A stretch of 64,000 nt of DNA. Origin: Ruegeria atlantica (GTDB lineage Bacteria > Pseudomonadota > Alphaproteobacteria > Rhodobacterales > Rhodobacteraceae). Location of the stretch: contig NZ_WQCF01000002.1 in the NCBI RefSeq assembly GCF_013032455.1, positions 310,001 to 374,000 of the forward strand, in the 5' to 3' direction. Below, piece after piece: positions 25,233 through 38,102 of the stretch; the stretch's first letter is position 1, and each line of letters starts with the position of its first letter. The notes beneath the pieces were generated by a model. It ran no database searches, was not told where the DNA came from, and worked only from the letters and a program-made list of their open reading frames with translations. The translations under genes were made by a program, and so were the position numbers.

Positions 25233-28151
25233 ATGTATGCCGAGCTGTCGATCACGTCGAACTTCACCTTTCTCACCGGGGCCTCGCACCCCGAGGAGTA
25301 CATGGAGCGTGCCGTCACCCTCGGTCTGCCCGCCATCGCGGTTGCCGATGACAATTCGGTCGCCGGGATCGTGCGCGCCCATACCCAAGGGCGCGAGATC
25401 GCCCGCAAAGTGCGCGAACGGCTAGAGTGGGAGGCACAGAACACATCGATCGGTCCGCCCTGCCCCGATCACATCCCCAAACCGCCTTCATACCCGATCC
25501 ACGCGGTGCCGCGCCTGATCCCGGCAGCGCGGCTGATCTTTACCGATGCGCCCACCGTCACCGCCCTGCCCCTGAACCGACAGGGCTGGGGGAACCTGTG
25601 CCGCATCCTGTCCAACGGCCGCCTGCGCGCCGAGAAAGGCGACTGCATCCTACACCTATCCGACCTGCTGGAGTTTTCCGACGGCCTCCACCTGCTGCTC
25701 TGGCCACAGGCAGACCGGTCAAAGGGCGGCGCGAGCGCGTGGCGGACACAGGCGCAACAGCTGACGCGCCGCTTTGGCGGGCAGATGCATCTGTTGATGC
25801 ACCCTCGATATGATGGCACAGATGGTACGTATTTCTTATTATTAGAGACTGAATCCAAGCAACTCGACATCCCCACCCTCGCCAGCGCCGCGCCAATGAT
25901 GCATCACGGCACCCGCCGCAAGCTGGCGGATGTGCTGACCGCCATCCGCCTGCGCCGCAAGGTCGATGATCTAGGCCGCGAGGCGCTGGCCAATGGCGAA
26001 CAACGCCTGCGTTCGGAATCCGAAATGCTGCGTATCTTCAAGGGGCATGAGGGCGCCGTTGCCCGCGCCCACGCGCTCAGCGAAGACCTCAGATTTTCAC
26101 TCGACGAGCTGCGTTATGAATATCCCAGCGAGGGCAGCGAGCAGGAAACCCCGACCGAACGCCTGCACCGTCTGGCGCATGAGGGGTTGAAATGGCGCTA
26201 TCCGGCTGGTGCGTCCGAGAAGGCCAAAAAAATGCTGGCCCATGAACTCACCCTGATCGGCAAGCTGAAATACGAACCCTATTTCCTGACGGTCCGCGAT
26301 ATCGTCCATTTCGCCCGGTCGCGCGGTATTCTCTGTCAGGGGCGTGGCTCGGCAGCCAATTCGGTGGTCTGTTTCTGCCTCGGTATCACCGAGGTCAGCC
26401 CCGAGATGGGCACAATGGTCTTCGAACGCTTTGTCTCCGAGGCGCGCGACGAGCCACCTGACATCGACGTCGATTTCGAACATGAACGGCGTGAAGAGGT
26501 GATCCAGCACATCTACGAGCGCTATGGCCGCCACCGCGCGGGTCTCTGCGCCACTGTCATCCACTATCGCGGCAAGCGCGCCATCCGCGAGGTCGGCCGC
26601 GCCATGGGCCTGACCGAAGACACCATCTCGGCGCTGTCATCGCAGCTTTGGGGGTTCTTCTCAGCTACCGGTCTTGAAGCGGAACGTATGCGCGAGATTG
26701 GTCTCGACCCCGAGGATCGACGCCTGAAACAGACCCTAATGCTGGTTTATGAGATCAACGGTTTCCCCCGCCACCTCTCGCAGCATGTCGGTGGCTTCAT
26801 CATCACCGAGGGGCGGCTGGACGAACTTGTCCCCATCGAAAACGCCACCATGGAGGAACGCACGGTCATCTGCTGGGACAAAGACGATATCGACTCGTTG
26901 GGCATTCTGAAGGTCGATGTCCTCAGCCTCGGGATGCTCACCTGCATCCGCAAGGCGTTCGATCTGATCGGCCAGCACCACCAGACCGCTTATACACTGG
27001 CGACCCTGCCGCCCGAGGACCCAACGGTCTATGACATGCTGTGTAAGGCGGACAGTATCGGCGTGTTCCAGGTGGAATCACGTGCACAGATGAACTTTCT
27101 GCCCCGGATGCGGCCACGCAATTTCTATGATCTGGTGATTGAGGTCGCCATTATCCGACCCGGTCCCATTCAGGGCGACATGGTCCACCCCTATATCCGC
27201 CGCCGGAACGGAGAGGAGGAGGTCAGCTTCCCCTCGGACGCGCTGGGTGAGGTATTGGGAAAAACGCTGGGCGTACCCCTGTTTCAGGAACAGGCCATGC
27301 AGATCGCCATTGTCGGCGCAGGTTTCACCCCGGAACAGGCCGACCGGCTGCGCCGGTCTCTGGCGACGTTCAAGAAACACGGCAATGTCAGCGAATTCCG
27401 CGCGCTTTTCTTACGCGGTATGAAGCGCAACGGATATGAGGGCAACTTTGCCGAGCGCTGTTTTTCACAGATCGAAGGCTTCGGCTCATACGGTTTCCCC
27501 GAAAGCCACGCGGCCAGCTTTGCGCTGCTGGTCTATGCCTCGGCCTGGATCAAATGCCACCATCCGGGCATCTTCGCCTGCGCGCTGCTGAACTCGCAGC
27601 CGATGGGGTTCTATGCCCCTGCCCAGATCGTGCGCGACGCGCGAGAACATGGCGTTCAGGTGCGCCCGGTCTGCATCAATGCCAGCTTCTGGGACAATGT
27701 GATGGAACCCGACGGCCATGGCGGGTTGGCCTTGCGGCTGGGGTTCCGCCAGATCAAAGGCTTCAGCGAGGAAGATGCCAGCTGGCTGACCGCCGCGCGC
27801 GGCAATGGCTACCATCAGGTCGACGATGTCTGGCGTCGTGCCGGGTTGGGACCGTCGGTGATCGAACGACTGGCCGAGGCCGATGCTTTCGCCGCCTGCG
27901 ACCTGACCCGGCGCGAGGCGTTGTGGCAGGCCAAGGCGATTGCGACCGCGAAACCGCTGCCGCTGTTCTCGCAGGATCTGGAGGGTGAGGCGCTGGATGA
28001 GCCCGAAGCCTATCTGCCGCAGATGACGCTGGGCGAGCAGGTGGTCGAGGATTACGTGGCCACCCGCCTCAGCCTCAAGGCGCATCCGGTGGCCTTACTG
28101 CGGCATCTTCTGACGCCCGAGCCGCGCGACAAAACCACGCCTGTCGCCTGA
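25233..28151 (+). CDS. dnaE2: Error-prone DNA polymerase DnaE2 (C family), lacking the C-terminal OB-fold region
   Basis: A 972-residue translesion polymerase of the DnaE2/ImuC type. It has a PHP domain (starts MYAELSITSNFTFLTGASHPEE), the palm motif PDIDVDF with Asp410 and Asp412, the third catalytic region LKVDVLSLGML (Asp562), and a helix-hairpin-helix region (about 790-880). DnaE2 proteins are usually about 1,050 residues or longer; this one stops shortly after LGEQVVEDYVATRLSLKAHP, where others continue into an OB fold. The PHP histidine of the usual 'ELHxxSNFSFL' motif is replaced. Start is supported by TAGGGA. A near-LexA box precedes it, and imuB lies 3.2 kb downstream. Confidence 0.9.
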   Translation: MYAELSITSNFTFLTGASHPEEYMERAVTLGLPAIAVADDNSVAGIVRAHTQGREIARKVRERLEWEAQNTSIGPPCPDHIPKPPSYPIHAVPRLIPAARLIFTDAPTVTALPLNRQGWGNLCRILSNGRLRAEKGDCILHLSDLLEFSDGLHLLLWPQADRSKGGASAWRTQAQQLTRRFGGQMHLLMHPRYDGTDGTYFLLLETESKQLDIPTLASAAPMMHHGTRRKLADVLTAIRLRRKVDDLGREALANGEQRLRSESEMLRIFKGHEGAVARAHALSEDLRFSLDELRYEYPSEGSEQETPTERLHRLAHEGLKWRYPAGASEKAKKMLAHELTLIGKLKYEPYFLTVRDIVHFARSRGILCQGRGSAANSVVCFCLGITEVSPEMGTMVFERFVSEARDEPPDIDVDFEHERREEVIQHIYERYGRHRAGLCATVIHYRGKRAIREVGRAMGLTEDTISALSSQLWGFFSATGLEAERMREIGLDPEDRRLKQTLMLVYEINGFPRHLSQHVGGFIITEGRLDELVPIENATMEERTVICWDKDDIDSLGILKVDVLSLGMLTCIRKAFDLIGQHHQTAYTLATLPPEDPTVYDMLCKADSIGVFQVESRAQMNFLPRMRPRNFYDLVIEVAIIRPGPIQGDMVHPYIRRRNGEEEVSFPSDALGEVLGKTLGVPLFQEQAMQIAIVGAGFTPEQADRLRRSLATFKKHGNVSEFRALFLRGMKRNGYEGNFAERCFSQIEGFGSYGFPESHAASFALLVYASAWIKCHHPGIFACALLNSQPMGFYAPAQIVRDAREHGVQVRPVCINASFWDNVMEPDGHGGLALRLGFRQIKGFSEEDASWLTAARGNGYHQVDDVWRRAGLGPSVIERLAEADAFAACDLTRREALWQAKAIATAKPLPLFSQDLEGEALDEPEAYLPQMTLGEQVVEDYVATRLSLKAHPVALLRHLLTPEPRDKTTPVA

Positions 28152-28199
28152 CGCCACAACCGGATATTAGCCCAAAACAGAGTCGAAATCGGTGCCTTC

Positions 28200-28613
28200 A
28201 TGACCAGACCCACCCTGCCGCCGCGCTTCCCGGCGACACCCGATCAGATCAACGTACAGGTCCGCGCCTTTTACGCCCGGGTGCGCGAGGACACGGTGCT
28301 GGGACCGGTCTTCAACAATCATGTCACCAACTGGCCTGCGCATGAGGAGAAGATCGCCGCCTTCTGGCGCAACGCAATCCTGTTTGAACGCAGCTATGAT
28401 GGTAACCCGCAGCGCGTGCATATCGAACGGCCCGACGTGAAACCTGAGATGTTCGCCCATTGGCTGGACCTGTTCGAAGAAGTCGCCACCCAAACGCTAC
28501 CACCTGAAACCGCCACGCCGTGGGTCGCATTGGCTCGTCGCATCGGCGCGGGGATGAAGGCCGGTGTTCAATCGGCGCGCCAGCCAAAGAATGCACCGCC
28601 GATCCTGAGTTGA
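28200..28613 (+). CDS. Group III truncated haemoglobin
   Basis: A 137-residue haem protein of the trHbIII type: FYARVREDTVLGPVFN, the PAHEEKIAAFWRNAIL segment with the family tryptophan, and a proximal histidine candidate in MFAHWLDLFEEVA. Roles proposed for this family involve nitric oxide, peroxide or electron transfer and are unsettled. It starts 48 bases after dnaE2 on the same strand and may be co-transcribed. Confidence 0.88.
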   Translation: MTRPTLPPRFPATPDQINVQVRAFYARVREDTVLGPVFNNHVTNWPAHEEKIAAFWRNAILFERSYDGNPQRVHIERPDVKPEMFAHWLDLFEEVATQTLPPETATPWVALARRIGAGMKAGVQSARQPKNAPPILS

Positions 28614-28747
28614 CCCCACAACATAGCGGCTTTGCAATGTTAGCGGTAAAATAGGGGCTATGCGGGCTGGCCAAATCGGTTTACTCAGAGGCAAGACAGC
28701 CCCTGTGCGCTGCCCCTTCACACCGACACATCACCCGAGGCCGATCC

Positions 28748-29686
28748 ATGAGCACTCAGAACACCACCCTCCGGGGCCTTGGCTATGCGTTTGCGGGTTT
28801 TGCCGTCTTTGCCAGCCATGACGCGCTGATTAAAGTGCTGGGCGGCACCTATTCGGTGATGCAGATCATCTTTTTCGCCACGCTGTTTTCCTTTGTACCA
28901 ATGGCGGTGACGATCCTGACTGATCGAACCACCGGGAACTTCCTGCCGCATCACCCGTGGTTGGTGCTGCTACGCTCGGCGCTGATGGTTTTGGCCATGG
29001 TCTGCGCCTTCTACGCTTTCTCGGTGCTGCCGCTGGCCGAGGTCTATTCACTGCTGTTTTCTTTCCCGCTGATCGTCACGGTCCTGTCGATCCCAATTTT
29101 GGGTGAAGTCGTCCGCGCTCAGCGATGGGCAGCCGTTGGCGTTGGCCTGATCGGCGTTCTGATCGTTCTGCGCCCCGGAGCAACGGATATCACGCTGGGC
29201 CACCTTGCCGCCCTGACGGCAGCGTTTTGCAGCGCCTTTGCGTCTGTTCTGGTCCGCAAGATCGGGAATGAAGAACGCTCGGCCGTGCTGATCCTGTACC
29301 CGATGTTGCTGGCCATCGTGGTAATGAGCCTGCTGCAACCCGCCGTCTACCAACCGCCGTCACTACTGCATCTGGCGATGATGGCGCTGGTGGGCGTGTT
29401 TTCGGTCATCGCCCAGCATCTGATCATCCTGGCCTATCGCGCAGCCCCCGCCGGGGTGGTCGCCCCCAGCCAGTACAGCCAAATTATCTGGGCCACGTTG
29501 TTCGGAATGATATTCTTTGGCGAAACGCCTGATATCTGGGTTGCGGTCGGGGCCAGTATCATTATCGCATCCGGTGTGTTTGTTGTCTGGCGCGAGAGCC
29601 GGGCCAATACTTCGTCGGTCAATACTCCGGTTCTGCGAGTCCGGTCTCCGCGATCGGACACCGGCGCTACACGGCCTGGGAAATAA
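28748..29686 (+). CDS. DMT superfamily (EamA) transporter
   Basis: A 312-residue membrane protein with ten helices in two EamA units (LRGLGYAFAGFAVFASHDALIKVLGG at the N terminus, cited as its opening; AALTAAFCSAFASVLVRK in the second half). It resembles the RhaT/RarD-type permeases of roseobacters. Substrate is unknown. It is preceded by a 135-base spacer after the haemoglobin gene and converges with adhC, with a hairpin terminator between them. Confidence 0.85.
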   Translation: MSTQNTTLRGLGYAFAGFAVFASHDALIKVLGGTYSVMQIIFFATLFSFVPMAVTILTDRTTGNFLPHHPWLVLLRSALMVLAMVCAFYAFSVLPLAEVYSLLFSFPLIVTVLSIPILGEVVRAQRWAAVGVGLIGVLIVLRPGATDITLGHLAALTAAFCSAFASVLVRKIGNEERSAVLILYPMLLAIVVMSLLQPAVYQPPSLLHLAMMALVGVFSVIAQHLIILAYRAAPAGVVAPSQYSQIIWATLFGMIFFGETPDIWVAVGASIIIASGVFVVWRESRANTSSVNTPVLRVRSPRSDTGATRPGK

Positions 29687-29712
29687 GAAACGGCGCGCCA
29701 TACAGCGCGCCG
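29681..29712 (-). terminator. Rho-independent terminator downstream of the formaldehyde dehydrogenase gene
   Basis: An eight-base-pair GC-only stem CGGCGCGC/GCGCGCCG (29691-29698 and 29705-29712) with a six-base loop is followed on the minus strand by TTTCTTATTT. It may also help stop the convergent plus-strand gene. Confidence 0.75.
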
Positions 29713-29738
29713 CCCTCGAAAATCTTCGGTTTAGAGCC

Positions 29739-30851
29739 TTAGTAGACGACAACCGAACGGATGCTTTCGCCCTTATGCATCAGGTTGAAACCATGGTTGA
29801 TGTCGTCCAAGCCCATGGTGTGGGTGATCATCGGGTCGATCTCGATTTTGCCGTCCATGTACCAGTCAACGATCTTGGGCACGTCGGTCCGCCCCCGCGC
29901 GCCGCCAAAGGCGGTGCCGCGCCACGACCGGCCGGTGACCAGCTGGAACGGACGGGTCGAAATCTCGGCCCCCGCAGGCGCAACACCGATGATGATCGAT
30001 TCACCCCAGCCCTTATGCGCCGATTCCAGCGCGTCGCGCATCACGCCGACATTGCCGGTGGCGTCAAAGGTATAGTCCGCACCGCCCTTGGTCAGGTTGA
30101 CCAGATAGGGGACCAGGTCGCCTTCGACCTCTTTGGGGTTCACGAAGTCGGTCATGCCGAACTTGGTGGCCATTTCTACTTTGGACGGGTTCAGGTCGAC
30201 ACCAACGATCTGATCGGCCCCGGCCAAACGCAGGCCCTGGATCACGTTCAGGCCGATGCCACCCAGACCGAACACGATGGCACGGCTGCCGATTTCCACC
30301 TTGGCGGTGTTGATCACCGCACCGATGCCGGTTGTGACACCGCAGCCGATGTAACAGATCTTGTCGAACGGTGCGTCCTCACGCACTTTGGCCAGCGCGA
30401 TTTCCGGCAGAACCGTGTGGTTCGAAAAGGTCGAGCAGCCCATGTAATGCAGGATCGGATCTCCATCCAGCGTCGAAAAGCGAGAGGTCCCGTCAGGCAT
30501 CAGACCCTGACCCTGCGTTGAGCGGATCGCCTGACACAGGTTGGTTTTGGGATGCAGACAGTACTCACACTCACGGCATTCCGGAGTGTAAAGCGGGATC
30601 ACGTGATCGCCGGGCTTCAGGCTGGTTACGCCCGGGCCGACCTCAACTACGACGCCTGCACCTTCATGGCCCAGAATCGCGGGAAACAAGCCCTCGGGAT
30701 CTGCACCCGACAGGGTGAATTCATCGGTGTGGCAGATACCGGTGGCTTTGATTTCCACCAGAACCTCGCCCGCCTTAGGGCCTTCGAGGTTCACATCCAT
30801 CACTTCCAAAGGTTTGCCCGCCTGAATGGCGACGGCGGCACGGGTACGCAT
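29739..30851 (-). CDS. adhC: S-(hydroxymethyl)glutathione dehydrogenase / class III alcohol dehydrogenase
   Basis: A 370-residue zinc-dependent enzyme that oxidises the formaldehyde-glutathione adduct with NAD+, and can reduce S-nitrosoglutathione. Visible residues: catalytic zinc Cys in [22 protein letters not shown], the structural zinc cysteines in [27 protein letters not shown], and the nucleotide-binding [10 protein letters not shown]. The family name is secure; alternative symbols are flhA and frmA. No glutathione hydrolase (fghA) gene is adjacent. A hairpin terminator follows. Confidence 0.95.
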
Positions 30852-30980
30852 ATCTTTGTCTCCCTGTCTTCTTTGACCTGACCCTGCGTCAAACGCAGGG
30901 TATTTTCAACTGCGCTTTGGTGACAGATTGGCTAATGATTTGATATTGCAGAAACGACATTGCCGCAAAGAGGAACGCCA

Positions 30981-31271
30981 ATGCGCCGTTTTATCCCAGT
31001 TTTGATCCTGCTGACCGCCTGTGCCGAGACGCCGCCCACGCCCGATGATACCCGTCTTGCGCCCGAAGCGGCACCGGTTGATCTGGCCGTTTGCCTTGGC
31101 GATCCGTTTGCCGATTCCATCGGTCAGCCGGTGTCGGCCATTCAGGCTGCGCTGCCCGAGCGGTCACGGGTTCTCGGGCCGGACGATATTGCCACGCAGG
31201 ATTACCGCATCGACCGGCTGAACGTTTACGTCGATGACGCCGGGATCATTCAGCGCCTGACCTGCGGGTAA
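30981..31271 (+). CDS. Peptidase inhibitor I78-like lipoprotein
   Basis: A 96-residue protein with a lipoprotein signal (RRFIPVLILLTAC, lipobox LTAC). The mature part resembles the I78 inhibitor family: DPFADSIGQPVSAIQAALPE followed by SRVLGPDD and a C-terminal YRIDRLNVYVDDAGIIQRLTCG. A Cys pair, one early and one at the C terminus, is typical. Target proteases are unknown. ATG 30981 has AGAGGAA upstream. It sits between adhC and imuB. Confidence 0.8.
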   Translation: MRRFIPVLILLTACAETPPTPDDTRLAPEAAPVDLAVCLGDPFADSIGQPVSAIQAALPERSRVLGPDDIATQDYRIDRLNVYVDDAGIIQRLTCG

Positions 31272-31301
31272 GCGTGGACTCAGGGCATGATTCTACGGTA
31301 A

Positions 31302-31316
31302 GAACAAAATGGGAAC
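31302..31316 (+). promoter_or_regulatory. LexA (SOS) box upstream of imuB
   Basis: GAACAAAATGGGAAC is an exact match to GAAC-N7-GAAC, the reverse complement of the alphaproteobacterial LexA operator GTTC-N7-GTTC. It ends 16 bases before the imuB ATG, close enough for LexA to block the promoter or start. Confidence 0.82.
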
Positions 31317-31332
31317 ATTTTGATGTCTGCCG

Positions 31333-32985
31333 ATGCCCAAACGCCGAATACTCTCACTGTGGTTCCCCCGTCTGGGGGCTGAACGGCTGGTCCGCGCTGC
31401 GCGGGGCCTGCAGGATGGACCTTTGGCCGTGGTGGCCGAACAGTCGAACATGCAGGTCATCACCTCTCTGAATACCGAGGCCCACGCTGCCGGTTTGCGC
31501 GTCGGTCAACCGGTGCGTGACGCCCATGCCATGTGTGCGGCGCTGGTAACGCGCCCCCGCAACGCCCCGGCCGAGGCCGCGTTCCTGACCGCTTTGCGCC
31601 GCTGGGCGGGGAAGTTCAGCCCGTGGGTGGCCGAAGAAGTCCCCGATGGTTTGATCGTCGACCTGTCGGGCTGCGCGCATCTGTTCGGCGGGGAAGAGGC
31701 CTTGTTGAGCGTGCTTGAGACCGACTGCGCCGATATGGGGTTGAGCGTGCAGATGGGCATTGCCGACACGCTGGGCGCGGCCTGGGCACTGGCGCGCTAT
31801 GCCGGGCAAGAGGCCACATCGGATCGCAACGGCGACGCCATCAGCCAAGAGGCTCGCGCCACCCGTGCCCGCGCCACCAAGCGGCGGCACTGGACCAAAG
31901 GTGGCGCCGCGCCGCAGGTGATGGCCTTGGGCGGCGGCGCACGGATTGCAGCGCCGGGGCAGTCTTATGGCGCACTCAGCCCCCTGCCCATTGCGGCGCT
32001 GCGGCTGGAGGATCAGGTGGTGGCGCAGCTGAACCGGCTGGGTCTGCGCCGGATCGGCGATCTGCTAGGCCAACCGCGTGCCTCTCTGGCACGGCGCTTC
32101 GGGCGGGGGCTGGTGCTACGGCTGGATCAGGCGATGGGCAGCGCGCCCGAGCCGGTCTCACCCGCCCGCCCGCCGCATCACTTTGCGGTGCGGATGACCC
32201 TGCCCAACCCGATCGGCCTGATCGAAGATGTGATGGCCGCGATCGACCGGATTCTGCCGACGCTCTGCGCCAAACTGGAAGAGAAAGGCCGCGGCGTCCG
32301 CACCCTGCGGCTCGAGGCGCATCGCGCCGATCAGGCCGCCGAGATCATTGAGGTCGGGTTGGCCCGCCCGACTTATGACAAACACCGTATTCGGCCTTTG
32401 TTAGAGATGAAAATCAACCAGATCGATGCCGGCTATGGCATCGACATGCTGCGGCTTGAGGCGACCCAGACCGAACCTATCCACGCCCGCACGATGGCTG
32501 GCCATGCCGAGGCCCGCCGCGTTGGCCGCGAGCGGTTGGAGGGCAATACAGGCGTGGACGATCTGATCGGCAAGCTGGGTGCCCGGGTGGGGCTGGAGGC
32601 GATTACAAGGCTACACCCGGCGGCATCACATATCCCCGAGAAAACCGCGCAGATACTGGCGGCGGCCTGGTCGGAACCGGCCCGTGACTGGCCCGCCCCG
32701 CCGCGCCCGCGCCCCCTGCAGATGTGGCAGCCCGAACCGGTGATAGCCCCGGAAACCCCGGATGTACCCAGCGCCTTTCGCTGGCGCGGGCGCGACTGGC
32801 AGCTGGCGCAGGCCACCGGCCCCGAACGCATCGCCCCGGAATGGTGGCTGGACGACCCCAACTGGCGCAGCGGCGTGCGCGATTACTGGGTGGTGGTGAC
32901 CGAACAGGGGGAACGGCTGTGGCTGTTCTACGGCCATGGTGGCACCATGTCGGCGGGCTGGTTTTGTCAGGGGCAATTTGGCTGA
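31333..32985 (+). CDS. imuB: ImuB, Y-family polymerase-like mutagenesis protein
   Basis: A 550-residue DinB/UmuC-superfamily protein: N-terminal PKRRILSLWFPRLGAERLVRA, the DLSGCAHLFGGEEAL segment of the palm, a helix-hairpin-helix region LNRLGLRRIGDLLGQPRASLARRFG, a little-finger region, and a C-terminal tail (DYWVVVTEQGERLWLFYG) typical of ImuB. ImuB lacks polymerase catalytic residues and bridges DnaE2 to the beta clamp. No Shine-Dalgarno is obvious before ATG 31333. imuA, normally just upstream, is absent from the window; dnaE2 lies 3.2 kb upstream. Confidence 0.9.
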   Translation: MPKRRILSLWFPRLGAERLVRAARGLQDGPLAVVAEQSNMQVITSLNTEAHAAGLRVGQPVRDAHAMCAALVTRPRNAPAEAAFLTALRRWAGKFSPWVAEEVPDGLIVDLSGCAHLFGGEEALLSVLETDCADMGLSVQMGIADTLGAAWALARYAGQEATSDRNGDAISQEARATRARATKRRHWTKGGAAPQVMALGGGARIAAPGQSYGALSPLPIAALRLEDQVVAQLNRLGLRRIGDLLGQPRASLARRFGRGLVLRLDQAMGSAPEPVSPARPPHHFAVRMTLPNPIGLIEDVMAAIDRILPTLCAKLEEKGRGVRTLRLEAHRADQAAEIIEVGLARPTYDKHRIRPLLEMKINQIDAGYGIDMLRLEATQTEPIHARTMAGHAEARRVGRERLEGNTGVDDLIGKLGARVGLEAITRLHPAASHIPEKTAQILAAAWSEPARDWPAPPRPRPLQMWQPEPVIAPETPDVPSAFRWRGRDWQLAQATGPERIAPEWWLDDPNWRSGVRDYWVVVTEQGERLWLFYGHGGTMSAGWFCQGQFG

Positions 32986-33001: not shown

Positions 33002-33727
33002 CTATTTTCCGCGGTAGACTAACCAGTCCGGCAGGTAATCCAGCAACCAGATCACCCAGGAAAACGGCGCCGGGAAATTAGTGCGGAAGCGGCGGCGTAA
33101 CATTGCTTTGACCACCCGATCCGCCGCGTCTTCGGGTGTCATCAGCATCGGCATCTTGAAATTGTTCTTATCGGTCAGACGAGTCTTAATGAAACCCGGA
33201 TTGACGATCCGCACCGTCACCCCCGTGCCAGCCAGATCGAACCGCATGGTTTCCGCCAGTGAAACCAGCGCCGCCTTGCTGGACGCATACCCCACCGCTG
33301 CTGGCAGTCCACGATAACCGGACAGTGACCCGATCAGCGTGATATCCCCCCGGCCCTCACGGACAAAGCCCGGCACCGTTTCGCCCAGAACCCGCAGCGC
33401 GCCGGTATAGTTCACGTCGGCCATTGCCAAAACGGCCTCGGTATCCCAATCCCCCGTACGCATCGGCTCATAGGCCCCGGCGTTATAAACAAGCCCATCG
33501 ATTTCACCGACTTCACTCACGGCGCGGCGCACTGTGTCCAGATCGGTCACGTCACAAGGTACAGCCTGAGCGTTTGGTAGCGTGGCACATATCTCGACCA
33601 AGCGGTCGGCATTACGGGCAGACAGGATCAGATGCGCGCCCTGGCGGCTTAGCGCCTCGGCCAACGCCCGGCCCAGCCCTTCGCTGGCACCGATGATCCA
33701 GTAGGTTTTTCCCTCAAATCTGCTCAT
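33002..33727 (-). CDS. Short-chain dehydrogenase/reductase, divergent from the furan fatty acid-type operon
   Basis: A 241-residue SDR with the cofactor motif GASEGLGRALAEA, the NAG of VYNAGAYEP, catalytic Ser in LIGSLSGYRGLP, and the YxxxK motif YASSKAAL. The C-terminal region has a hydrophobic stretch (FSWVIWLLDYLPDWLVY) suggesting membrane association. ATG 33727 is chosen over 33775 because the RpoE-type promoter at 33760-33785 would start transcription between them. SDRs of this type accompany COG2907 oxidoreductase clusters in many bacteria. Confidence 0.88.
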   Translation of the reverse strand: MSRFEGKTYWIIGASEGLGRALAEALSRQGAHLILSARNADRLVEICATLPNAQAVPCDVTDLDTVRRAVSEVGEIDGLVYNAGAYEPMRTGDWDTEAVLAMADVNYTGALRVLGETVPGFVREGRGDITLIGSLSGYRGLPAAVGYASSKAALVSLAETMRFDLAGTGVTVRIVNPGFIKTRLTDKNNFKMPMLMTPEDAADRVVKAMLRRRFRTNFPAPFSWVIWLLDYLPDWLVYRGK

Positions 33728-33759
33728 GCCCCGGCCATTCCAGTTGTGATGCGGGTTTT

Positions 33760-33785
33760 TACGGCCGAAGCACATGGCTGGATCA
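33760..33785 (-). promoter_or_regulatory. RpoE/ECF11-type promoter for the SDR gene
   Basis: On the minus strand: TGATCC (33785-33780), a 16-base spacer, then CGTAA (33763-33759). This agrees with the ECF group 11 (RpoE-ChrR) promoter form. The -10 lies about 33 bases upstream of ATG 33727. It mirrors a plus-strand copy 50 bases away. Confidence 0.7.
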
Positions 33786-33836
33786 CATCGCCAGACGGCA
33801 CAACATAGGTCATTTGCGAAAAACTTCTAATTCGAT

Positions 33837-33863
33837 TGATCCACCCCCGCATCTGCTGCGTAT
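33837..33863 (+). promoter_or_regulatory. RpoE/ECF11-type promoter for the FAD oxidoreductase operon
   Basis: TGATCC (33837-33842), a 16-base spacer and CGTAT (33859-33863), with the ATG 33 bases beyond. Spacing and both hexamers match the opposite-strand copy, which argues against chance. Confidence 0.75.
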
Positions 33864-33895
33864 CCTATTGTAAAATGTCGTATAAAGAGGATGGC

Positions 33896-35230
33896 ATGTT
33901 CGACGAAACCCGAGGCGTACGCAAGAAAATCGCAGTAGTAGGTGCAGGGATCTCAGGTCTATCGGCTGCTTATTATCTTTCCAAAACCAACGATGTGACA
34001 GTGTTTGAGGCCGAACCCCGGTTGGGCGGACACGCCCGTACCGTGATGGCCGGCAAGAACGGGGATCAGCCCGTCGATACCGGATTCATTGTATTCAACT
34101 ATGTTACCTACCCTTATCTGACGCGCCTATTCGATGAGTTGAACGTACCGGTCATCAAGTCCGAGATGAGCTTTGGCGCAACTATCGACAATGGCCGCAT
34201 CGAATACGGGTTGAACAACCTACGCACGCTGACGGCACAGAAACGCAACCTCGCCCGCCCCGCTTATTACAAGATGATCGCCGATATCCTGCGGTTCAGC
34301 AAAGAAGCTCCCGAGGCCGCACAGGACGACGACACAACAATCGGGGAACTGGTCGATCAGCTCCGCCTCGGTTACTGGTTTCGCCATAACTACCTAATGC
34401 CCATGTGTGGTGCGATCTGGTCCACGCCGGTCGAGTTCGTGGATCAGTTCCCAGCGCGTTCGCTGGTCCAATTCTTCCGCAACCACGCCCTGCTGGCCAG
34501 TGGTCGCGCCAAACAGCACCAGTGGTACACGGTAAAAGGCGGCAGCATCGAATATGTCCGCCGCATCGACGCTGCTCTACGCGCGCGGGGGAGCGAAATA
34601 CGATTGGCCTCAGCCGTCGATCACATCCAACGCAATGATGCAGGCATAACCGTTCACAGTCAGGGTCAGGCAGATTTGTTTGATGAGATCATTCTGGCCA
34701 CCCATTCCGATCAATCGCTTGCAATACTCGGTGAGTCAGCCACAGATGCCGAAAAGTCAGCATTAGGGTCTATTAAATACCAACCTAACACCGCCATCCT
34801 GCATTGTGACCCAAGCCAGATGCCCCGGCGTCGGGCCTGCTGGTCCAGTTGGACCTATCGCTCTCAGGCGGGAAATGTGGGGGTTACCTATTGGATGAAC
34901 CGGCTTCAGAACATTCCGGACAGCGATCCGCTGTTCGTGACGCTGAACGCATCATCAGAAATTCCCGCGGACAAAATCTATGATCAGGTCGAATTTGCCC
35001 ATCCGGTGTTCGACAAGGCGGCCCTGAAAGCACAAGGGCAAATCCGCGAGATGCAGGGACAGAACCACACTTGGTTTGCTGGTGCGTATAACCGGCATGG
35101 CTTTCACGAAGACGGGATTGCCAGCGCGATGCATGTTGTCGAGCGCCTGAACGGCACCCCGCATACACTCGGAGCTGACAATGGCTTTCTTGCAAAAGAC
35201 CCGACCATCCCTGCCCCGGCCGATATTTAA
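33896..35230 (+). CDS. ufaD: FAD-dependent amine-oxidase-like oxidoreductase (COG2907), probable UfaD-type fatty acid desaturase
   Basis: A 444-residue flavoprotein with the Rossmann motif VVGAGISGLSAAYYLSK, then EAEPRLGGHA, DTGFIVFNYVTYP, and a C-terminal FAD motif AGAYNRHGFHEDGIASA. From memory, the R. sphaeroides operon RSP1091-1087 is RpoE-controlled, and RSP1091 (UfaD) dehydrogenates methylated acyl chains in furan fatty acid synthesis; gene order here looks the same, so the symbol is assigned by inference. ATG 33896 has AGAGGA upstream and follows the ECF promoter. It overlaps the next gene by 50 bases. Confidence 0.72.
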   Translation: MFDETRGVRKKIAVVGAGISGLSAAYYLSKTNDVTVFEAEPRLGGHARTVMAGKNGDQPVDTGFIVFNYVTYPYLTRLFDELNVPVIKSEMSFGATIDNGRIEYGLNNLRTLTAQKRNLARPAYYKMIADILRFSKEAPEAAQDDDTTIGELVDQLRLGYWFRHNYLMPMCGAIWSTPVEFVDQFPARSLVQFFRNHALLASGRAKQHQWYTVKGGSIEYVRRIDAALRARGSEIRLASAVDHIQRNDAGITVHSQGQADLFDEIILATHSDQSLAILGESATDAEKSALGSIKYQPNTAILHCDPSQMPRRRACWSSWTYRSQAGNVGVTYWMNRLQNIPDSDPLFVTLNASSEIPADKIYDQVEFAHPVFDKAALKAQGQIREMQGQNHTWFAGAYNRHGFHEDGIASAMHVVERLNGTPHTLGADNGFLAKDPTIPAPADI

Positions 35231-35726
35231 CCCTCTTCGCGCGGCATGTCTGTCGCTTGCCCTGCTGACCCCGTCCGGGTTAGTAGCGTCTTCCGGCCTG
35301 AACACGCTTGACGACGCGCAGCTGCGCGGCACCGCGACATTCCGGTATCTGGGCTTCCCGCTATACGATGCGCGATTGTTCACCTCAGGTGGCACGGCTT
35401 TCAGCTGGTCACAGGATTTCGGGTTGGAACTGAAATATCGCCGCAACCTGACTCAAAAGGCGCTGGTTAACTCGACATTGGACGAGATGGCGCGCATTGG
35501 CCGCCCGGCCCCGGTGCGAGATCAGCTTCAAACCTGCTTCAAGGCCGTGAACAAGGGTGATCGCTATCTGGCAGTCTCGGACGGGCCGGACGCTGTCTCG
35601 TTCTGGCTGAACGGGCGAAAGACTTGCACGATGACATATCCGGGCATCAAACGCAGCTTCATGTCGGTTTTCCTTGGTGAAAACACCCGATCCGCTGCGT
35701 TTACGCAGAAATTGCGCGGGCAGTGA
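35181..35726 (+). CDS. Chalcone isomerase-like exported protein (UfaO candidate)
   Basis: A 181-residue protein with a signal sequence (LRAACLSLALLTPSGLVASS) and the chalcone-isomerase-like fold of bacterial periplasmic homologues: GTATFRYLGFPLYDARLFT, then LELKYRRNLTQKALVNSTLDEM. It starts inside the FAD oxidoreductase gene, with GGAG seven bases before ATG 35181, and its stop overlaps the MFS start. By position it would correspond to RSP1090, which I recall as UfaO, needed for the oxygen-dependent furan step; this is not certain from sequence alone. Confidence 0.78.
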   Translation: MAFLQKTRPSLPRPIFNPLRAACLSLALLTPSGLVASSGLNTLDDAQLRGTATFRYLGFPLYDARLFTSGGTAFSWSQDFGLELKYRRNLTQKALVNSTLDEMARIGRPAPVRDQLQTCFKAVNKGDRYLAVSDGPDAVSFWLNGRKTCTMTYPGIKRSFMSVFLGENTRSAAFTQKLRGQ

Positions 35727-36949
35727 TGCTGTACCCGAGGGTCAGTCTCTATGCGCTGATGCTGGCTGCGGCGGGTATCCCGCTTTATATCCACCTGCCG
35801 CGCTTTGCCGCCGTCAATTTGGGTGTCGGGTTGGGGGTGATCGGTACCGTTCTGCTGGTGATCCGCATTGTTGATCTGGTGCAGGACCCGCTGATTGGCT
35901 GGGCCATCGATCGCTGGCCACAAGCGCAAATGCTGTTCGCTGCTGCGGCTGCGCTAGGGCTGGCAGTTGGGTTTCCCTTACTGTTTGGTCTGCCCGAAGA
36001 CATCAATCTCCCCGTATTAGTATCTGTTCTGATACTTTTATTTTCCGCCTACAGCCTTGGCACCATCTTGCTCTACGGCCGCAGTGCGACTTTGGCGACA
36101 AAACCCGAGGCGAAAGAATTGATGACTCTAGCCGCGTGGCGCGAAGGCGGGCAACTGACCGGAGTGGTCGTCGCCGCCAGCGCCCCTGCTCTGTTCGTGG
36201 CTTCTGGGGCGAGCGCGCAGGGCTATCCGGCATTCGGCCTGTTTCTGGGGTTGCTCGCCTTCCTGACCCTGATCCTGACCCTGCCCATGTGGCGGCGCGC
36301 GCCAATAACCGGTGAGGGCCTGTCTGTTGCCGGGTTGGGTCAGGCTGGTGCTCTCCGGCTACTTTTGTTGGCGCTGGTCAACAGCTTACCTGTGGCGATT
36401 ACTTCGACTCTGTTTCTATTCTTTGTCGAAGATCGCCTGCAATTGCCTGGAAAAGCCGGGCCGCTGTTGATCCTGTTTTTCCTCAGTGCAGGGGCTACAG
36501 TGCCGTTTTGGGCCAAGCTCAGCAATCGAATTGGCCCGAAACAGACTCTGATCATTGCCATGCCATTGTCGATTGCGGGCTTTATTGGTGCTGCCATGTT
36601 GTCGGCTGGAAACCTGACCGGCTTCGCCCTGATCTGCCTAACCTCAGGCGCGGCGCTGGGCGCGGATATGGTGGTGCTGCCTGCCATGTTTTCTGTCGTG
36701 CTGACACGCGCGGGGCTCAATGCTTCGGCGGCATTCGGCATTTGGTCCTTTGCAGGCAAGCTGGGCCTCGCTCTTGCTGCTTTTTTCACACTGCCGCTGC
36801 TGGAACGCAGTGGGTTCTCACCGGGGCAACCCAATTCGACGGAAGCATTGAGGACTCTCACCCTCGCCTATGCCGTACTGCCCTGCATCCTGAAACTCGG
36901 CGCGTTCGGGCTGGTACTGACGCTGCCTACGGAGGCCTCAGCCAAATGA
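35726..36949 (+). CDS. MFS transporter, GPH/melibiose-like type, in the RpoE operon
   Basis: A 407-residue membrane protein with about twelve helices. The N-terminal block PRFAAVNLGVGLGVIGTVLL and DLVQDPLIGWAIDRWP match the GPH cation-symporter-like MFS branch. Its ATG overlaps the chalcone isomerase-like stop (a GTG at 35723 is also possible), and its stop overlaps the next gene by ATGA. In this context it might move lipids or lipid precursors, but no substrate can be read from the sequence. Confidence 0.85.
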   Translation: MLYPRVSLYALMLAAAGIPLYIHLPRFAAVNLGVGLGVIGTVLLVIRIVDLVQDPLIGWAIDRWPQAQMLFAAAAALGLAVGFPLLFGLPEDINLPVLVSVLILLFSAYSLGTILLYGRSATLATKPEAKELMTLAAWREGGQLTGVVVAASAPALFVASGASAQGYPAFGLFLGLLAFLTLILTLPMWRRAPITGEGLSVAGLGQAGALRLLLLALVNSLPVAITSTLFLFFVEDRLQLPGKAGPLLILFFLSAGATVPFWAKLSNRIGPKQTLIIAMPLSIAGFIGAAMLSAGNLTGFALICLTSGAALGADMVVLPAMFSVVLTRAGLNASAAFGIWSFAGKLGLALAAFFTLPLLERSGFSPGQPNSTEALRTLTLAYAVLPCILKLGAFGLVLTLPTEASAK

Positions 36950-37563
36950 CTGTCGTTGCTATCCTTCTTCTTGCCATCCTCGCCCTAGTCATCGCTCAGC
37001 GCCAATTTCTGAGTTTCCGGTCGCAAGCGCCATCGGACTACACCGGCACCGGGCCTGCGTTCAACATTAAGGAAAACCTGAACGGAGAGATCCTGTCCGA
37101 AGGGCTGATCTATGGCCCCATTGGCAAGATGTCGAACAGCTTTGTTGCCCGAATGGTTGGCGAATGGGAGGGCAATACCGGCACGCTGGCCGAGTATTTC
37201 ACCTATTCCAACGGCAAGCAGATGACCCGCAAATGGTATCTGACGCTGGGCACCGGCAACACATTCACCGCCACGGCTGATGATATCGTCGGCGAAGGCA
37301 AAGGCACCATCTCAGGCTCGACCGTCAAGCTAACCTACCGCATCATCCTGCCCGAGGACGCGGGCGGGTACACATTGGATGTCACCGACTGGATGTACCT
37401 GGCTGAAAACGGCGTGATCATGAACCGGTCCGAGATGCGAAAATTCGGCATCAAGGTCGCGGAACTCGTCGCCACTATGCGTCCGGCGCCAGAAGTTAAC
37501 GCCGCTTATGTCAGCGGTTCAAACGGCTTTGACTCAGCGACCGAGACGAGGACATTGCAATGA
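36946..37563 (+). CDS. DUF3833 family protein (first of a tandem pair)
   Basis: A 205-residue protein with an N-terminal membrane anchor (VVAILLLAILALVIAQ). Its body has the DUF3833 plan: FNIKENLNGEILSEGLIYGPIGK, VGEWEGNTGTLAEYFTY, then VTDWMYLAENGVIMNRSEMRKFG. A longer upstream frame exists but would overlap the MFS gene extensively; ATG 36946 with GGAGG upstream is chosen. It shares about the same layout as the next gene but has no lipobox, so the pair likely arose by old duplication. Function unknown. Confidence 0.78.
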   Translation: MTVVAILLLAILALVIAQRQFLSFRSQAPSDYTGTGPAFNIKENLNGEILSEGLIYGPIGKMSNSFVARMVGEWEGNTGTLAEYFTYSNGKQMTRKWYLTLGTGNTFTATADDIVGEGKGTISGSTVKLTYRIILPEDAGGYTLDVTDWMYLAENGVIMNRSEMRKFGIKVAELVATMRPAPEVNAAYVSGSNGFDSATETRTLQ

Positions 37564-38102
37564 ACGCCCGCCGTGTTCTGATCTGGGCGCTTGCCATCAT
37601 GGGGCTGGCCATGTTGGCGGCCTGTTCCGCAAAACCGCGTGTGCCCAAGAGCTTTCTGTCTGACAGGCAACTGAACCTTGAAGAGTTCTTTGAGGGCAGG
37701 ACTGTTGCCTACGGTCAATTTCAAGACGTGTTGGGGAATATTCCCCGTCGCTTTACCGTCGATATCGAGGGCACATGGGACGGTAAAATCCTGACCCTAG
37801 TCGAAGATTTCGTCTATGACGACGGCGCGACCGAGCAACGTATCTGGACCCTGACCAAAACGGGCGAGGATATTTGGACCGGCACCGCGCCCGGCGTTCT
37901 GGGTTCTGCCAGCGGGGTCGAGCGTGGTGATACGTTCAACTGGAAATACAAGATCGACCTGCCTGTGAAGGACGGCACGATGCGGGTGAATTTTGATGAC
38001 TGGATGTGGTTGCTGAGCGATGACCGACTGCTGAACCGTGCCTATGTCTCACGCTATGGCGTCCGGTTGGGTGAAGTTATTCTGTTTTTTGAGAAGCGAT
38101 GA
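37560..38102 (+). CDS. DUF3833 lipoprotein (second of the tandem pair)
   Basis: A 180-residue lipoprotein: signal peptide with lipobox LAAC (about residue 22), then LNLEEFFEGRTVAYGQFQDV, FTVDIEGTWDGKILTLVEDF, and a C-terminal DDWMWLLSDDRLLNRAYVSRYG. This is a close DUF3833 match. It overlaps the preceding paralogue by four bases and ends the five-gene operon, converging on the TonB-like gene 24 bases later. Function unknown; its lipid anchor suggests a membrane-interface role. Confidence 0.87.
   Translation: MNARRVLIWALAIMGLAMLAACSAKPRVPKSFLSDRQLNLEEFFEGRTVAYGQFQDVLGNIPRRFTVDIEGTWDGKILTLVEDFVYDDGATEQRIWTLTKTGEDIWTGTAPGVLGSASGVERGDTFNWKYKIDLPVKDGTMRVNFDDWMWLLSDDRLLNRAYVSRYGVRLGEVILFFEKR

Follow-up and report, generated by a model that had tools for sequence, protein, structure and literature searches.

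Back-to-back ECF11-type promoters at a ufaD locus of Ruegeria atlantica and an apparently hybrid furan-lipid pathway

Two promoters of ECF11 type stand back to back between an SDR-family oxidoreductase gene and a ufaD-like operon in the window, the whole 64-kb stretch of Ruegeria atlantica DNA analysed here. It is highly likely that RpoE, released by an oxidant, drives both the ufaD operon and the SDR gene from these promoters for the synthesis of furan lipids, and that a locus of roseobacter type is here served by an RpoE of sphaeroides type. This reading builds on the promoter sequences, their conservation, the presence of RpoE and ChrR, the relatives of the encoded proteins and phylogenetic trees; from these we infer RpoE dependence, induction, the lipid product and the order of losses. 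The singlet-oxygen regulon itself is known. The gene arrangement is new, and the split, apparently hybrid pathway is the part for which no published account was found. The locus puts both a singlet-oxygen regulon and the synthesis of furan lipids into a marine bacterium where no reaction centre was found, and it offers a natural experiment in which an operon of one lineage is apparently run by the sigma factor of another. It thus becomes directly testable to what extent a reshuffled pathway is held together by its ECF promoter codes and not by gene linkage.

Architecture of the divergent region and its genes

The preliminary description held that TGATCC-N16-CGTA occurs on both strands, with equal spacers and with -10 boxes 32-33 bases before the start codons, and direct reading bears this out. 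Both spacers measure 16 bases, and the -10 box lies 33 bases from the ATG of ufaD (33896) and 32 bases from that of the SDR gene (33727). The coordinates then given are right for the minus site (33785-33760) and for the start of the plus site (33837), but the plus site ends at 33862, not 33863. The promoters had also been called facing. This orientation is rejected, as the -35 boxes are innermost, separated by 51 bases within a divergent region of 170 bases, and the -10 boxes point outwards (Table 1). Each site has the boxes, the 16-base spacer and the gene just downstream expected of ECF11 promoters, and both are very probably real promoters of the RpoE-ChrR kind. A longer SDR frame starting at 33775 begins inside the promoter, which makes 33727 the likely start. 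In an alignment of the Ruegeria gaps, the A-rich tract above the -35 box of ufaD is mostly kept, as are ATTGTAAAA and the GAGG of the ufaD leader; the tract may be UP-element-like.

Table 1. Features of the divergent locus, in window coordinates.
Feature	Position	Strand	Details
SDR-family oxidoreductase, 241 aa	33002..33727	-	PF00106, E 4.9e-41
ECF11-type promoter of the SDR gene, TGATCC-N16-CGTA	33760..33785	-	-35 TGATCC 33785-33780, N16, -10 CGTA 33763-33760; direct reading
Region between the -35 boxes	33786..33836	.	A-rich tract GAAAAACTTCTAA upstream of the ufaD -35 box
ECF11-type promoter of ufaD, TGATCC-N16-CGTA	33837..33862	+	-35 TGATCC 33837-33842, N16, -10 CGTA 33859-33862; direct reading
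Short leader of ufaD	33863..33895	+	ATTGTAAAA and Shine-Dalgarno-like GAGG
ufaD-like FAD oxidoreductase, 444 aa	33896..35230	+	PF01593; relatives adjoin ufaO/ufaM/rpoE-chrR
181-aa protein	35181..35726	+	relatives in many roseobacter-type ufaD operons
MFS/GPH-type transporter	35723..36949	+	PF13347
DUF3833 protein, 205 aa	36946..37563	+	PF12915, E 3.7e-51 (scored on a longer frame)
Further DUF3833 protein, 180 aa, final operon gene	37560..38102	+	PF12915, E 2e-57

The plus-strand genes overlap in series and the next open reading frame is convergent, which makes a single five-gene operon likely. By homology, the ufaD-like product is predicted to be a methyl-branched fatty acyl desaturase, and the right-hand operon would be the ufaD furan-fatty-acid operon. 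Family and context make the SDR and the MFS/GPH-type transporter putative counterparts of RSP_1087 and RSP_1089, respectively, while the 181-aa protein matches no Pfam or NCBIfam model. The locus is flanked by genes for a dnaE2-like polymerase and an imuB-like protein (25233-32985), which we take to be an SOS mutagenesis cassette; imuB lies near the SDR gene in 22 of the 29 Ruegeria loci among the best 80 of at least 586 UfaD relatives.

Chance expectation and sites across the genome

The pair had been judged unlikely to arise by chance, and the counts agree. TGATCC-N14-18-CGTA occurs three times in the 64-kb window against 0.37 expected, with three or more in 0 of 100 shuffles. The third match (12968-12944, minus strand, spacer 15) is rejected as a promoter, lying at the start of and within a 515-aa frame. 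Across the genome (4.24 Mb, 40 contigs, 99.9% complete), sites with spacers of 15, 16 and 17 bases number 8, 19 and 8 (binomial p 0.009 if equal thirds are expected). Roughly half of the N16 matches may therefore be background, and a match by itself is no more than suggestive. The divergent pair has much greater specificity. Among 248 genomes of the family, this one included, it occurs with a gap of 40-70 in 17 and with a gap of 10-39 in 46, while the reversed pattern is found in 0 of the 248 in both gap classes. When 32 of the 65 divergent-pair matches were read as loci, 22 proved to lie between ufaD and rpoE, 8 between ufaD and ufaO and 1 between ufaD and an SDR gene; in the remaining one the pair precedes rpoE and the opposite gene is not identified.

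A genome search for the same motif had been proposed in the preliminary description, and its N16 sites do precede rpoE, ufaO and further regulon-like genes. Ten of the 19 directly precede genes, most of them regulon-like: those for a fasciclin, photolyase-CMAS, an 83-aa protein, a 167-aa protein, ufaO, rpoE, the SDR, ufaD, a glutathione peroxidase and an RpoH-type sigma factor. The other nine are unlike promoters, being within reading frames or without a fitting start. Of the 13 sites inspected among the 16 with spacer 15 or 17, none looks like a clear intergenic promoter; one (L015) is followed by a GTG at 40 bases, yet lies within a 333-aa frame. As judged by promoter sequence, ECF11-type sites stand before rpoE-chrR, furan-lipid genes, a photolyase gene and an rpoH gene, which are kinds of target known from the RpoE-ChrR regulon (PMC7074977 and PMC6852236, in excerpt). 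The 83-aa and 167-aa proteins (L009, L010) match no Pfam model, begin 33 and 32 bases past their ECF11-type sites and are candidate regulon members.

RpoE, ChrR and the inducing signal

The proposal of RpoE control had been made to hang on an ECF11 sigma factor in the genome, and both RpoE and ChrR are found. The ChrR model TIGR02451 has one gene above its cut-off (222 bits against 124.5), adjoining an ECF sigma gene at C12:203843 whose product is the single RpoE of the ECF11 kind in the genome at E 1e-25. The best PDB matches are R. sphaeroides RpoE (2q1z, E 5.4e-83) and, for ChrR, 2z2s (E 1e-73). All eight zinc ligands of ChrR (His6, His31, Cys35 and Cys38; His141, His143, Glu147 and His177; PMC6852236, in excerpt) are kept in the alignment. 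A second, weak ChrR-like protein (L032, C37:244553-244816) scores 36 bits, below the cut-off. The rpoE-chrR genes are unlinked to the promoter pair, 140 kb away. They are preceded by an exact ECF11-type site of their own with boxes identical to those of the pair, and ufaO (DUF1365, PF07103) diverges from rpoE behind its own exact site, the two -35 boxes being 16 bases apart. The rpoE start codon lies just 8 bases past its -10 box (C12:203835-203843); this short 5' end suggests a message without a leader, or else a true start further downstream.

Both transcripts of the pair would depend on this RpoE. By analogy with R. sphaeroides, the pair may be induced by singlet oxygen: singlet oxygen, or a related oxidant, would lead to loss of the anti-sigma factor ChrR, and the freed RpoE-RNA polymerase would transcribe the ufaD operon to the right and the SDR gene to the left. 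It is possible, though we consider it less likely, that the promoters are real and that organic hydroperoxides or other oxidants, not singlet oxygen, are the main natural signal. No match to PF00124, the reaction-centre family, was found in the genome, and the natural oxidant may therefore be external or not singlet oxygen. In addition, the Caulobacter system is activated by organic hydroperoxides too (PMC6852236, in excerpt), and an RpoE2-dependent glutathione peroxidase of Shewanella takes part in the oxidative stress response (PMC4336711, in excerpt). Against this, the zinc ligands of both ChrR domains are kept, and the same promoters precede genes for furan lipids. Moreover, cells at the marine surface meet external photosensitisers, which also counts against a hydroperoxide signal.

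The furan fatty acid pathway

Methylated furan fatty acids have a reported role as membrane scavengers of singlet oxygen. UfaD, UfaO and a CMAS-type UfaM, named for their functions by homology, are all encoded behind ECF11-type promoters in this genome. The CMAS gene behind the photolyase gene on contig C1 is likely ufaM, a name given by family and neighbours; it has 40% identity to roseobacter-type ufaM, and the photolyase-CMAS layout presumably resembles the phr-cfa operon of R. sphaeroides. An operon of ufaD followed by ufaO was not found, the sole PF07103 match being the gene divergent from rpoE (C12:202977-203675). In the proposed mechanism, ufaO and the photolyase-CMAS operon elsewhere, both with the same promoter type, would join the ufaD operon, and together the expressed genes would yield methylated furan fatty acids that would scavenge membrane singlet oxygen.

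In R. sphaeroides, UfaM, UfaD (RSP_1091) and UfaO (RSP_1090, DUF1365) convert vaccenate to a methylated furan fatty acid, for which RSP_1087, RSP_1088 and RSP_1089 are dispensable (PMC7380195, in excerpt). RSP_1087 is an SDR, and RSP_1089 belongs to the GPH family of symporters (PMC7074977, in excerpt). As RSP_1087-1089 are dispensable there, the roles of the SDR, the transporter and the DUF3833 proteins are putative at most. The turnover of ChrR with singlet oxygen requires furan fatty acids in that organism (PMC6852236, in excerpt).

Conservation of the promoter pair

The loci of the best 80 of at least 586 UfaD relatives were kept, comprising 29 Ruegeria loci by record title and, in our own grouping, 44 loci of roseobacter type and 7 others. 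The closest named relatives of UfaD among the matches listed are Ruegeria proteins, with up to 94% identity. Both promoters read TGATCC-N16-CGTA in all 29 Ruegeria loci among these best 80 of at least 586; in the gap alignment the boxes are invariant, and spacer and flanking letters vary. If the last base of the -35 box is left free, the site is found on the ufaD side in 74 of the same 80 loci, on the opposite strand in 73 and on both in 70. One or both sites are absent in 10 of these 80, and a spacer of 15 or 17 occurs in 1. Together with the presence of RpoE and ChrR and the regulon-like sites, the 29 conserved pairs support the earlier placement of the SDR gene and the five-gene operon under a predicted RpoE-ChrR system.

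Four of these 10 loci have an altered -35 box. Three of them (L101, L102 and L105; two titled Shimia and one a Rhodobacteraceae MAG) have TGAACC-N16-CGTA on both strands, and Shimia marina (L097) has it on the ufaD side; the rpoE promoters of all four remain TGATCC or TGATCT. In the former three, the promoters of ufaD and the divergent ufaO have changed in concert, and that of rpoE is still TGATCC.

It is improbable that RpoE reads the ufaD promoter alone and that the SDR gene, expressed otherwise, has on its side just a chance match or the remnant of a lost ufaO promoter. The SDR gene sits within the ufaD operon in R. sphaeroides (as far as the excerpted source goes) or behind ufaO in roseobacter-type loci, making an SDR-adjacent promoter peculiar to the Ruegeria layout, and RSP_1087 is, as noted, dispensable for furan fatty acids. 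Two weak sigma-70-like sites also point toward the SDR gene from within ufaD (33972-34001), with 2 in the region against 2.5 in shuffles and no excess. However, all 29 Ruegeria loci (among the best 80 of at least 586 relatives) keep the minus site whole and its spacer at 16 bases despite variable letters in flanks and spacer, which favours RpoE-driven promoters on both sides. That another ECF sigma factor reads the pair is still harder to credit: the concerted TGAACC change hints that the sigma dependence of the pair can perhaps shift, but the boxes of the window are identical to those before rpoE, whose product has no second of its kind in the genome at E 1e-25.

Comparison with known systems

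The R. sphaeroides RpoE-ChrR regulon resembles that of R. atlantica in its sigma and anti-sigma factors (the best PDB matches), promoter boxes and spacing, and in its targets, namely ufaD, ufaO, a GPH-type transporter, an SDR, photolyase, rpoH and fasciclin. It differs in arrangement. Here rpoE-chrR lies 140 kb from ufaD, ufaO rather than ufaD diverges from rpoE, and no reaction-centre gene was found; the SDR gene diverges from ufaD with its own promoter, whereas RSP_1087 is described (in excerpt) within the ufaD operon. Compared with the RSP_1091-1087 operon, with RSP_1088 left aside, the window locus likewise has ufaD first, a GPH-type transporter and an SDR, but it lacks ufaO (DUF1365) and has a 181-aa gene and two DUF3833 genes.

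A closer counterpart is the roseobacter-type cluster, as in Thalassovita aquimarina (L066), where rpoE-chrR and ufaO-SDR accompany a divergent ufaD-ufaM-181aa-MFS-DUF3833 series. Here are found the nearest relatives of UfaD (65-73%) and of the SDR outside Ruegeria among the matches listed, together with a divergent promoter pair and the same downstream order. The window locus differs in being without ufaO, ufaM and an adjacent rpoE-chrR, and the RpoE of the genome is of sphaeroides type. The Shewanella oneidensis RpoE2-ChrR regulon shares the TGATCC and CGTA boxes, which at rpoE2 and pgpD belong to promoters with mapped starts, and its targets include glutathione peroxidase, photolyase and cfa (PMC4336711, in excerpt); unlike the present system, it is gammaproteobacterial and has another gene order.

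Hybrid origin of the pathway

In loci of roseobacter type, ufaO-SDR diverge from ufaD, which is mostly followed by ufaM, the 181-aa gene, the transporter and DUF3833, and the whole mostly lies beside rpoE-chrR. In loci of sphaeroides type (our label, n=16), rpoE-chrR diverge from ufaD, and ufaO lies behind ufaD in 14 of 16. The proteins of R. atlantica divide between the two: its RpoE has 62-74% identity to the 16 sphaeroides-type loci versus 45-58% to roseobacter-type ones, and its UfaD 65-73% to roseobacter type versus 51-55% to sphaeroides type. In trees from quick searches on rows of our choosing (63 RpoE and 58 UfaD, our locus types B and C mixing on both), Ruegeria RpoE groups with the sphaeroides type, R. 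sphaeroides included (SH-aLRT 99), and Ruegeria UfaD groups with the roseobacter type (SH-aLRT 99 on the separating branches). Forcing Ruegeria RpoE together with the roseobacter type is rejected by the AU test (p 7e-9; p 6e-7 minus six long or mixed rows), and forcing Ruegeria UfaD together with the sphaeroides type is modestly rejected (p 0.041). A first AU test on RpoE, in which all but the sphaeroides type were held together (p 0.693), was badly posed, ignoring the placement of Ruegeria, and is set aside. The UfaO tree (28 rows, the sphaeroides-type row L192 dropped as too short) separates Ruegeria from the roseobacter type only.

This RpoE type is present at 75% identity or more in 52 of 54 genomes of the genus. 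The rpoE locus was read in 35 of the 52, and ufaO diverges from rpoE in 33 (this one included). In these 33 gaps the rpoE-side site is always exact, and the ufaO-side site is exact in 18, including this genome. The ufaO-side -35 box is altered in the other 15, most often to TAATCC (L164-L166, L168, L170-L178, L181 and L184), which makes RpoE control of ufaO less sure there. In G275 and G283, a sphaeroides-type ufaD diverges from rpoE. In the 16 genomes of the genus that were searched with UfaD, the protein is of the Ruegeria type in 12 (81-100%), of a roseobacter type in G293, of another type in G272 and of the sphaeroides type in G275 and G283. Relatives of RSP_1090/91 are reported to adjoin rpoE-chrR in many Rhodobacteraceae, including Ruegeria litorea (PMC7074977, in excerpt). 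That layout, as excerpted, differs from the 29 Ruegeria loci (among the best 80 of at least 586 relatives) and agrees with the clusters left intact in G275 and G283.

In each of eight genomes examined that carry the ufaD-ufaO pair, a single RpoE is found at E 1e-25; all are 49-55% identical, and none is of sphaeroides type. The stretch TGLPLGTIKSRIRL, which we take to hold the -35 recognition helix, is nearly invariant between this RpoE and those of roseobacter type, although the whole proteins are about half identical. One sigma factor could serve both lineages, as this stretch is nearly invariant and the boxes are the same in both. In most of the Ruegeria examined, the pathway is probably a reciprocal-loss hybrid of a sphaeroides-type cluster minus ufaD and a roseobacter-type cluster minus ufaO and rpoE-chrR, in which the sphaeroides-type sigma factor took over through the shared recognition helix and the TGATCC-N16-CGTA code. 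On the simplest reading, two clusters would have met in a Ruegeria ancestor, each losing what the other kept; the window locus would derive from a cluster with ufaO-SDR opposite ufaD that lost ufaO and its own rpoE-chrR, and it would now be served by the sphaeroides-type RpoE.

This apparently hybrid nature was missed by the preliminary description. Among the matches listed in a literature search of titles and abstract openings, there was no account of the Ruegeria locus or of a hybrid; an earlier prediction of the pair in Ruegeria, for instance in the comparative regulon study of Dufour et al. (2008), is possible.

Three further observations concern other clusters. One roseobacter-type cluster (L073, JAHVJD010000002.1) belongs to an assembly labelled Nocardioides marinus, where a wrong label or contamination may be the explanation. 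Phaeobacter sp. 11ANDIMAR09 carries two roseobacter-type furan-lipid clusters (L071 and L104), one of them on a 23.8 kb contig. Finally, one Ruegeria genome has, besides the usual hybrid set, a second rpoE-chrR/ufaD-ufaO cluster of another type (L187, G267:C27), and its position on a small contig of 48.6 kb suggests mobility.
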